This document shows, piece by piece, positions 12,458 to 63,565 of a stretch of 64,000 nucleotides of DNA. Made by a program: the position numbers and the translations under genes. Each line of letters begins with the position of its first letter. The stretch's first letter is position 1. The notes under the pieces are model-generated. The model was not told the origin of the DNA and searched no databases. It saw nothing but the letters and a program-made list of their open reading frames with translations. The DNA comes from Bacteroidetes bacterium SW_9_63_38 (GTDB lineage Bacteria > Bacteroidota > Rhodothermia > Rhodothermales > Salinibacteraceae): assembly GCA_003022435.1 (NCBI GenBank), contig PXUA01000001.1, forward strand, positions 124,001 to 188,000. Direction: 5' to 3'.

Positions 12458-12503
12458 CTTACACGAAGAATATTGTTTATCTACCCGTGCACGGATCAGT
12501 AAG
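12458..12503 (-). mobile_element. Partial copy of the TA-flanked MITE family (one end)
   Basis: Read on the minus strand from 12503, this starts CTTACTGATCCGTGCACGGG and continues GTAGATAAACAATATTCTTC. It matches the left end of the element at 51419 at about 42 of 46 positions. The terminal TA is at 12500-12501. No matching opposite end is found about 110 bases further in (around 12390), so this copy is truncated or degraded. The surrounding gene-free stretch 12300-12740 shows nothing else I can name. Confidence 0.65.
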
Positions 12504-51418: not shown

Positions 51419-51529
51419 TACTGATCCGTGCACGGGTAGGTAAACAATACTCTCCGTGTGAAGAGATCTCCAGAGCCGTGTTGCGTTATCAGCGGAGGTC
51501 GTCTTTGGGAATCCATTCACGTATCAGTA
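51419..51529. mobile_element. TA-flanked MITE, second copy
   Basis: The left end TACTGATCCGTGCACGGG starts at 51419 and the right end TTCACGTATCAGTA ends at 51529. The ends are inverted copies with one mismatch (TACTGATCCGTG against TACTGATACGTG). The flanking TA at both ends fits a TA target duplication as made by IS630/Tc1-type transposases. The left end also contains GTAGGTAAACAATA, close to the element at 61443 (GTACGCAAACAAT) and the partial copy at 12458. No protein is encoded. Confidence 0.75.
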
Positions 51530-51635
51530 AGGGCGGTATCCTCTTTTCTCTCTAACGCTTCTCCCCGATACAGGCATCTCTGGCTGTTGAACGCAGGTGC
51601 CGAGCACGCCCTGTTTCCCCGAACGCCCCGACTCG

Positions 51636-60777: not shown

Positions 60778-61745
60778 ATGTCCGTTCAGGCCCTCTCCAC
60801 GCCGTGTCTGCTTCTCGACTGCGCCCGTCTGTCGAGAAATATAGAGCGGATGCAGCAGACAGCCGGTGCAAACGAGGTGGCACTGCGCCCCTACGTCAAA
60901 ACCCACAAGTCCGTGGAAGTGGCCCGACGGCAACTCGACGCCGGGGCGTCGGGCCTTACGGTCGCGACGGTCGCGGAGGCCGAAACCGTTCTGGAGGCCG
61001 GGGCCGACGATGTCCGCGTGGCCTATCCCGTCACGGGCCGCGACAAACGCGAGCGGCTGGCGGCCCGACAGGATCGGGCGCGACTCTCGTGTACCGTCGA
61101 CACCGCGACGGGCATCGACCGGGCCTCGGCGGTCCATGCGGCCCGCGAGCAGCCCCTGGAGGTGCTTCTGGAGGTCGGCGTGGGTCACGGGCGCTGCGGC
61201 GTCCCCTGGGACGATCCCGACGCCGCCGTCCGGCTGGCGCGTCGCATCGTCGACCGGCCCGGCCTTCAGCTCGTCGGTCTCCTCACGCACGCCGGACAGG
61301 CCTACGACGCCCCCCGGGACGACGAATCTCCCTCGGCGGCCCTCCGGCGCGTGGCCCGGCACGAACGCGACCGGATGCTGTCGGTCGCCGCGCATCTGGC
61401 AGAAGCCGACGTGCCCGGCGTCGTCCCCAACGACTTCGAGATTACCGATCCGTGAGAAAGTACGCAAACAATTTTCTTTGGCCCGGTGTGAACCGTGCTC
61501 AGTTATGAGCGAAACCGAACGTGCCAATCTCAGATTGGCGGAAACTTATTCACGGATCGGTAGCATCGGCTCGACGCCGACGATGGCCGCCTTCGAAAAC
61601 GCCGAGCGCGACGGCTTTCGGATTACCGAGATCCGGCCCGGCAACTACGTGATGCACGATGCCATGCAGGTGGCCCCTTGGGGCCGCCACGCTCGACGAC
61701 TGCGCCCTCACCGTTCGCACGACCGTCGTGAGCACCCGAGAACGT
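60778..61745 (+). pseudogene. D-threonine aldolase/alanine racemase-like protein, interrupted by a MITE
   Basis: This was a PLP enzyme of the DSD1/D-threonine aldolase family. MSVQALSTPCLLLDCARLSR, RPYVKTHKSVEVARRQLDAG with the PLP-binding Lys, and GLLTHAGQAYDA are present, and the frame ends at a stop in VPNDFEITDP. The stop lies in a 118-bp insertion at 61443-61562. After it the family continues GSTPTMAAFENAERDGFRIT and EIRPGNYVMHDAMQVA. One extra C in a CCCC run near 61675 shifts to LGAATLDDCALTVRTTVVST. The last 140 or so residues are missing after RERPDG. The gene therefore has three lesions (insertion, frameshift, 3' loss). The adjacent carbonic anhydrase gene is intact. Confidence 0.88.
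61443..61562. mobile_element. TA-flanked MITE inserted in a D-threonine-aldolase-like gene
   Basis: The ends are TACCGATCCGTGA (61443-61455) and TCACGGATCGGTA (61550-61562), a perfect 13-bp inverted repeat. TA stands at both edges, as expected from a duplicated TA target. Removing the 116-bp element and one TA gives GAG ATT AGC ATC GGC TCG, which restores the reading frame (DFEISIGSTPT) and the expected protein motif. The inner part GTACGCAAACAAT matches the copies at 51419 and 12458. No coding capacity: it needs a transposase in trans. Confidence 0.92.
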
Positions 61746-61864
61746 CCCGACGGGTTCCGGTCCGCAAATTGCGGGCAAAATCAACGGCGTCCTCTGAACG
61801 AACGGCCCGTCCCCGGCGTCTGTACCAACTGTGCGTCGATGATTTTGACCCGACTCCTGATGGA

Positions 61865-63565
61865 ATGACGGAGACCCGTTCCTACGTGGACATCGACAAC
61901 CTGACCGACCGGCTCCGCTCGGTGCCGTACACCCCCATTCTGCGTACGATTGGGCGGGTGGCCGAACGCGAGGCCATCGAGGCGTACGCCGTGGGCGGCA
62001 TGGTCCGCGACGTGCTCCTGGGCCGCTCCACGACCGACCTCGACTTCGTCACCGTCGGGGCCGATACGGGCATCGCCCTGGCCGAGGCGGTGGCCGAGGA
62101 ACTGGGCGGTCGCAAAGCGCACGTCTATCCCAAATTCGGAACGGCTGCCATCCGAATCCCCGACAGTGGTCGGGACCGAGGTCCCGCGGAGGAGGCCCTG
62201 CCCGCCGACACGCTCGTGCTGGAGTTTGTCACGGCCCGCAAGGAGAGCTACCGGTCCGATTCGCGCAGGCCCATCGTGGAGACCGGGACACTGGAGGAGG
62301 ATCAGTACCGCCGCGACTTCACGATCAACGCGATGGCGATCCACCTGGCGCCGGATCGCTTCGGCGAGCTCCTGGACCCGTTCGACGGATGTCGCGACCT
62401 CGCCCGCGAGACCATCGACACGCCGCCCCGAAAGCCTTCGGGGGAGACGTTCGAAGACGATCCCCTGCGCATGATCCGGGCCGCCCGCTTTGCCACCCAG
62501 CTGGAGTTCCGGGTATCGGATCGCGTCTTCGAGGCCATGCAGGAGAAGGCCGAGCGGGTCGGGATCCTGACGCAAGAACGGATTACGGAGGAGCTGCACA
62601 AGATTCTGGAGACCGACACGCCCTCCATCGGGTTCAAGATGCTGGAGGCGGCGGGGGTGCTGCCGCACTTCATGCCCGAGATTCAGCGGCTGAAGGGGGT
62701 CGACGTGGTCAACGGTCGCGACCACAAGGACAACTTCTACCACACCCTGGAAGTGCTGGACAACGTGGCCGAGCGGACGGCGGACCGCCCGGGCGAGGAA
62801 ACGCGCTGGCTCCGCTGGGCGGCGCTCCTTCACGACATCGCGAAGCCGCACACCAAGCGCTTCGATCCGGACGACGGATGGACCTTCCACGGGCATGAGG
62901 ACAAGGGGGCCCGCATGATTCCGGACCTTTTCCGCAAGTGGCGTCTGCCGACCGACGAGCGCATGGACTACGTGCAAAAGCTCGTGCGCCTGCATCTGCG
63001 CCCCATTGCGCTGGCGGATGAGAACGTGACTGACTCCGCCGTGCGCCGCCTGCTGTACGAGGCCGGCGACGACATTGACGACCTCATGACACTGGTGCGC
63101 TCAGACGTAACGTCCGGCAATCCGCACCGGCGTCGTCGCTACCTCAACGCCTTTGACCGTGTGGAGGAAAAGATGCGGATTGTGGAGGAGAAGGACCGCC
63201 TCCGCAACTTTGAGCCGCCGGTGGACGGGTACGAGATCATGGAGACGCTGGGCATCGAGGAGGGCGTGGCCGTTGGCATCGCCAAAACCTGGATCCGCGA
63301 GGCCATCCTCGACGGCGAGATCGCCAACGAACATGACGCCGCGTACGACTACCTGATGACCATCAAGGACGAGGCCCTGCGTCGCGGCGCCCTGTTCGAT
63401 GCGATGCAAGACCGCCTGACGGGCCGCGAGAACCGGGCGATGCGCGCGATCAAGGAGGCCGTCTTTGAAGCCTCGGACCTGCCCGACGACCGTGCCGCGG
63501 CGCTGGACTACCTGGAGGACGTGAAGAACGAGGTACTGTCCGATGAAGAGAGCGCGGAGGAATAG
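61865..63565 (+). CDS. cca: CCA-adding tRNA nucleotidyltransferase with HD domain
   Basis: The enzyme adds or repairs the CCA tail of tRNAs. The 566-residue protein starts MTETRSYVDIDNLTDRLRSV. The class II nucleotidyltransferase signature is AYAVGGMVRDVLLGRSTTDL (GGxxRDxxxGR) at about residue 41, with the catalytic Asp pair in DLDFVTVG. EDQYRRDFTINAMAI and DPLRMIRAARFATQLEFRV follow. The HD domain has ALLHDIAKPHTKRFDPDDGW, FHGHEDKGARMIPDLFRKWR and LVRLHLRPIAL. The length is more than a simple CCA enzyme (about 400) but normal for the Bacteroidota type with HD. Poly(A) polymerase is the main alternative, but this architecture is typical for CCA enzymes in the group. Confidence 0.92.
   Translation: MTETRSYVDIDNLTDRLRSVPYTPILRTIGRVAEREAIEAYAVGGMVRDVLLGRSTTDLDFVTVGADTGIALAEAVAEELGGRKAHVYPKFGTAAIRIPDSGRDRGPAEEALPADTLVLEFVTARKESYRSDSRRPIVETGTLEEDQYRRDFTINAMAIHLAPDRFGELLDPFDGCRDLARETIDTPPRKPSGETFEDDPLRMIRAARFATQLEFRVSDRVFEAMQEKAERVGILTQERITEELHKILETDTPSIGFKMLEAAGVLPHFMPEIQRLKGVDVVNGRDHKDNFYHTLEVLDNVAERTADRPGEETRWLRWAALLHDIAKPHTKRFDPDDGWTFHGHEDKGARMIPDLFRKWRLPTDERMDYVQKLVRLHLRPIALADENVTDSAVRRLLYEAGDDIDDLMTLVRSDVTSGNPHRRRRYLNAFDRVEEKMRIVEEKDRLRNFEPPVDGYEIMETLGIEEGVAVGIAKTWIREAILDGEIANEHDAAYDYLMTIKDEALRRGALFDAMQDRLTGRENRAMRAIKEAVFEASDLPDDRAAALDYLEDVKNEVLSDEESAEE

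Follow-up and report, generated by a model that had tools for sequence, protein, structure and literature searches.

A TA-flanked MITE family in Salinivenus, with a modular interior and one copy in a PLP-enzyme gene that is broken in two further ways

The segment at 61443-61562 of the 64,000-nt stretch analysed here (the window) is a true MITE insertion whose scar can be read, and the gene around it has two further lesions. It belongs to a real family of TA-flanked, non-autonomous, multi-copy inverted-repeat elements comparable in kind to RUP, Correia and ERIC; the family is an ordinary one, with a modular and unusual interior. The data as a whole are best explained by a MITE that moved in trans and inserted with duplication of a TA (probability about 0.9), and comprise a repeat family with inverted ends and TA borders, a reading frame that is restored once the element is taken out, and relatives in which the gene has no interruption. 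The family is found in Salinivenus and a few other members of its taxonomic family: two of the 13 genus genomes hold dozens of copies and the others few or none. No matching helper was found, and the family offers a usable case for burst spread followed by helper loss. It has apparently not been described before: the titles and opening lines of abstracts on MITEs in Salinibacter, Rhodothermus and Salinivenus describe no such family, and in passages of PMC3832224 the term MITE occurs in the reference list.

Insertion in a PLP-enzyme gene

The element and the gene that carries it have the following parts.

60778..61455, + strand: PLP-enzyme gene, 5' part (PF01168 domain), with its stop codon inside the element
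61443..61562, + strand: family-A MITE copy, 120 bp including the TA at each end
61443..61461, + strand: left terminal inverted repeat, with 13 perfect bp counting the TA and 89% complementarity over 19 nt
61523..61539, no strand: 17-nt palindrome GCCAATCTCAGATTGGC, one of the blocks of about 16-17 bp seen in longer copies
61544..61562, - strand: right terminal inverted repeat, pairing with 61443..61461
61563..61754, + strand: PLP-enzyme gene, 3' remnant

The left end, TACCGATCCGTGA, begins at 61443 and its exact reverse complement finishes at 61562, giving the ends TACCGATCCGTGA / TCACGGATCGGTA. A preliminary description of this DNA had reported a 116-bp segment with perfect 13-bp inverted ends (counting the TA) inside a D-threonine-aldolase-like gene, and the sequence is as claimed; the 116 bp are those between the two TAs. 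The element is short, non-coding and ended by inverted repeats, as MITEs generally are, and the family has no coding capacity. Allowing up to two mismatches, TACCGATCCGTGA matches the window eight times against 1.65 expected, a number reached in none of 100 shuffles.

The host gene is D-threonine-aldolase/D-serine-dehydratase-like. Its frame is intact from 60778 up to the element, which it enters as ...NDFEITDP-stop. When the element and one TA are taken out the frame reads NDFEISIGSTPTMAAFENAERDGFRITEIRPGNYVMHDAMQVA and goes on as ...NDFEISIGSTPTMAAF..., and PF01168 spans residues 14-251 of this reading, which bears out the earlier claim that removal restores the sequence. Orthologues are present in all 13 genus genomes including its own; the 12 others are 59-69% identical over the query and all read straight through the insertion site with the same phrase (the G010 gene is divided between contigs, with the site visible on the second piece, L113). 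The segment is not an in-frame part of these related genes; its presence in frame in all of them is what the preliminary description had named as a refutation. It counts against the explanation that no pre-insertion TA is present in the orthologues compared, which have GAGATCAGC or a variant of it where the window has GAGATTAGC.

At about 61676 the gene's frame shifts by +1, and similarity to the orthologues stops after ...RERPDG at 61754, which accounts for the missing C-terminal domain (PF14031). Both relatives' proteins that were scanned with Pfam contain PF01168 and PF14031, and an NHACV stretch lost from the window's gene is kept in 12 of 12 relatives. Through the frameshift and the lost domain the gene is inactive regardless of the element, whose insertion is therefore not necessarily the cause. 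The statement that the MITE has disrupted the gene holds in that a TA-flanked insertion splits the frame; as the cause of inactivation it competes with the two further lesions, which may have come before or after it. Nor could the insertion be established as recent, since the nearest copy differs by 4% and the relatives' genes are only 59-69% identical, which leaves it without a date. The chance that the element landed in a gene already dead, and so cost no function, is put slightly short of even: the frameshift and the missing C-terminal domain favour it, but nothing places the three lesions in order and the 5' part is an intact frame as far as the element.

Copies and TA borders

Copy number is the decisive point against a chance origin. 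The element has 35 matches in its own genome (G000) at E<=0.001, the best other copy being 96% identical, and a sister consensus has 49; the copies are many and dispersed, as expected of a MITE. A sister family, B, is defined by TACTGATCCGTGC ends and has 43 matches in the own genome; two of its copies lie in the window.

51419..51530, + strand: family-B sister element, complete copy with ends TACTGATCCGTGC / CACGTATCAGTA
12489..12501, - strand: single end of another family-B copy, matching C1:136461-136501 of the own genome

A GGACAGGTCC palindrome lies shortly upstream of the family-B end at 12489-12501.

Matches to the element were found in three of the 13 genus genomes, with 35 in G000, 28 in G010 (another Salinivenus MAG) and two in G001. 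The end pattern at up to two mismatches matched seven of 27 family genomes, G000 with 39+39 matches, G010 with 37+33 and the other five with 1-5 in all; the backward control gave none in any of the 27. A scan of the genome collection returned 20 stretches, 19 from one Salinivenus MAG and one from QS_8_64_10, and there were no matches in plasmids, phages or viral contigs. Near-identical 103-bp copies in G010 (L063, L065-L071), many of them at contig ends, sit within a longer repeat, which seems to break that assembly.

The borders are predominantly TA. Of 57 distinct copies of family A and its sister in G000, 36 have TA on both sides, 16 on one side and five on neither, and the last two groups weigh against the explanation; the corresponding numbers for 35 copies in G010 are 23, 12 and none. 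Control positions shifted from the borders have TA in 0-4 copies per side, and in 0-3 for the G000 set. The many TA-flanked copies that the preliminary description proposed looking for are thus present. The two flanks agree in the base past the TA in 8/36 (G000) and 5/23 (G010) copies, as by chance, so there is no longer duplication. An independent tally that includes a few mis-paired or nested elements found T..A borders in 44 of 53.

A pirin gene provides a second interrupted frame. The copy there (L020 1501-1603; G000:C19:7002), when removed with one TA, leaves the frame open across the site, which falls within PF02678. The duplication of a TA is therefore indicated by the border counts together with the frames restored in two genes on removal of one TA; Pfam scanning covered only these two among 61 copies with joined flanks. 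In a third gene-interrupting candidate (G000 C3, L003) there is an open frame through the site.

Proposed mobilisation and the search for a helper transposase

The anatomy fits cut-and-paste by a DDE transposase acting in trans on the ends. The MITE would contribute transposase-binding ends only, and a transposase made elsewhere would cut it out and paste it into a TA dinucleotide, which would be duplicated. In the PLP-enzyme gene the insert adds 118 bp, shifts the frame and introduces a stop codon immediately.

The preliminary description assigned the insertion to an IS630/Tc1-type mechanism, which could not be established, and the search that it proposed for an IS630 transposase with matching ends found none. 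A PF13358 profile search of the own genome gave no match, and the IS630 model NF033545 gave five matches there, none above the cut-off and four with stop codons. No TACCGATCCGTGA-like ends were found around 15 genus loci (PF13358) or 30 family-wide loci (NF033545), which reach 1.5 kb to each side and in some cases stop short at a contig end; the family-wide search had 61 rows, of which 31 yielded no locus. Readable IS630 loci of relatives that have TA-flanked inverted ends show TACCAATTGCC-like ones. The family has the TA target of an IS630/Tc1-mobilised MITE but shares no ends with the IS630 loci examined; as these carry other ends, the assignment draws on the TA target, from which a helper of this type is judged somewhat probable. 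The own genome is assembled to 84% completeness, so the helper may have escaped the assembly, or may have been lost. Longer autonomous elements were sought at unpaired ends (L073, L126, L134, L008 and more), all of which turned out to belong to copies that were short, decayed or nested; no autonomous relative with these ends appeared in the loci examined, which counts against the explanation.

The same MITE might have been moved by a transposase of another TA-targeting family, which we consider unlikely. In its favour, the 84%-complete genome has no intact IS630 transposase, the genus IS630-type loci with TA-flanked inverted ends show the TACCAATTGCC-like sequence, and one family copy (C8:169525-169628) has a PF01609 piece nearby (G000:C8:168995-169405). 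Against it, the ends of the best inverted pair with TA flanks at this piece are different (TAGGTCGTACTGAC...), and an excerpt of PMC2229807 gives an IS630 helper for RUP, itself a TA-targeting MITE of 107 bp. A PF01609 search of the own genome found no locus with matching ends. A reading of the repeat as a conserved structured RNA, or as a regulatory element, rather than as a transposon is very improbable. A single copy folds well (DNA z -5.1, RNA z -5.2), but the consensus fold of 28 cores retains only terminal-stem pairs, copies interrupt genes, and Rfam has no family at gathering score in 61000-62000, its sole weak match there lying outside the element; the structured-RNA reading was rejected on the consensus fold and the Rfam result. 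Between 61300 and 62000 there were no promoter-like sites and one terminator-like site, outside the element, which is about the number in shuffles.

Comparison with known repeats

The comparisons with RUP, Correia/NEMIS, ERIC and BrickBuilt draw on excerpts of the papers cited. RUP is about 107 bp long, with a TA target, terminal inverted repeats, many copies and no ORF (PMC2229807), nests with other repeats (PMC10969869) and has as its proposed helper, with matching ends, IS630-Spn1 (PMC2229807). The new family resembles it in size, TA target, inverted ends, copy number, lack of an ORF and nesting; sequence and host differ, a helper has been proposed for RUP whereas none was found here, and 16-bp palindromic blocks, which the new family has, are not mentioned in the passages of PMC2229807 and PMC10969869 consulted. 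Correia/NEMIS elements have TA termini and size classes of about 107 and 155 bp, set apart by an internal 50-bp segment (PMC2229807); they differ from the new family in having 24-bp terminal repeats and another sequence, where the new family has palindromic size steps of about 17 bp. ERIC/RU-1, of 127 bp, has TA termini and is multi-copy like the new family (PMC2229807), but has 7-bp terminal repeats and enterobacterial hosts. These three are the nearest to the new family by form only, not by sequence comparison. The inner palindrome of ERIC is longer. BrickBuilt of Porphyromonas gingivalis is a MITE that holds a variable number of short units (PMC4596501); its units are a 23-nt head-to-tail minisatellite, whereas those of the new family are blocks of 16-17 nt, differing in sequence and each mostly palindromic.

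Palindromic blocks in the interior

Longer copies consist of a core of about 103 bp plus palindromic blocks of 16-17 bp, with clean indels at two internal sites. Among 84 two-ended copies from several genomes (58 A, 26 B), 44 measure 102-104 bp with their TAs, and the lengths between 110 and 180 bp form groups near 118-120, 136-138 and 152-154 bp, with a further group at >=166 bp. The best length period, in a test devised after the lengths were seen, is 17.25 bp (R 0.64; 23 lengths), which 4 of 5000 random sets reach over periods of 10-30. Hairpins (arms of at least 6, loop of at most 4) number 25 in the 22 long copies, with at least one in 17 of them, against a mean of 1.53 and a maximum of 6 in plain letter shuffles; 50 cores have one, against a shuffle mean of 1.44. 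L009, with its nested element, and L039, with its doubled end, are left out of the hairpin and length set. Because automatic pairwise placing divided many inserts at arbitrary points, it was set aside for lengths, hairpin counts and a small multiple alignment.

In that alignment, of six copies, clean 16-bp gaps fall at two inner sites. The window copy has the second-site block and G000 C3:222389 has both blocks, while two G010 copies that are alike elsewhere differ by GGGGATCTAGATCCCC at the first inner site. A related palindrome, GGAATCNNAGATTCC, occurs at up to one mismatch 33/36 times (on the two strands) in G000 and 13/15 times in G007, with 0-1 for controls and 0-4 per strand in the other 11 genomes. 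G007 has no match to the element itself, and eight of 13 fetched GGAATCNNAGATTCC places there have one other repeat in common. Sites that are alike in other respects thus differ in having or lacking a block, and blocks also lie scattered in other repeats, as SDR-like modules would.

We propose tentatively, as a possibility that is not the favoured one, that the blocks of 16-17 bp are mobile or templated units which would repeatedly enter the middles of MITEs, unrelated Salinivenus repeats and one another. The clean indels of about 16 bp could also be losses from a longer ancestor. Elhai is said to have described in 2008 the small dispersed repeats (SDR) of cyanobacteria as very short modules inserted precisely in other sequences. 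In a passage of PMC4390886 there is an SDR5 insertion inside HIP1. The 16-17-bp blocks resemble these repeats by general description, not by sequence or size comparison. If the blocks are mobile, they would be a bacterial parallel to the cyanobacterial SDRs, with MITEs as landing pads. The palindromic blocks, with their clean gain or loss in steps of about 16 bp, offer a place to test the multiplication of hairpin-sized DNA units.

Nesting was seen in several copies. At L009 1544-1647 a family-B element is nested in a family-A copy, and L012, L079, L005 and L008 contain a further nested element, with TGTR...GAGATTA-like inverted ends, within palindromic blocks.
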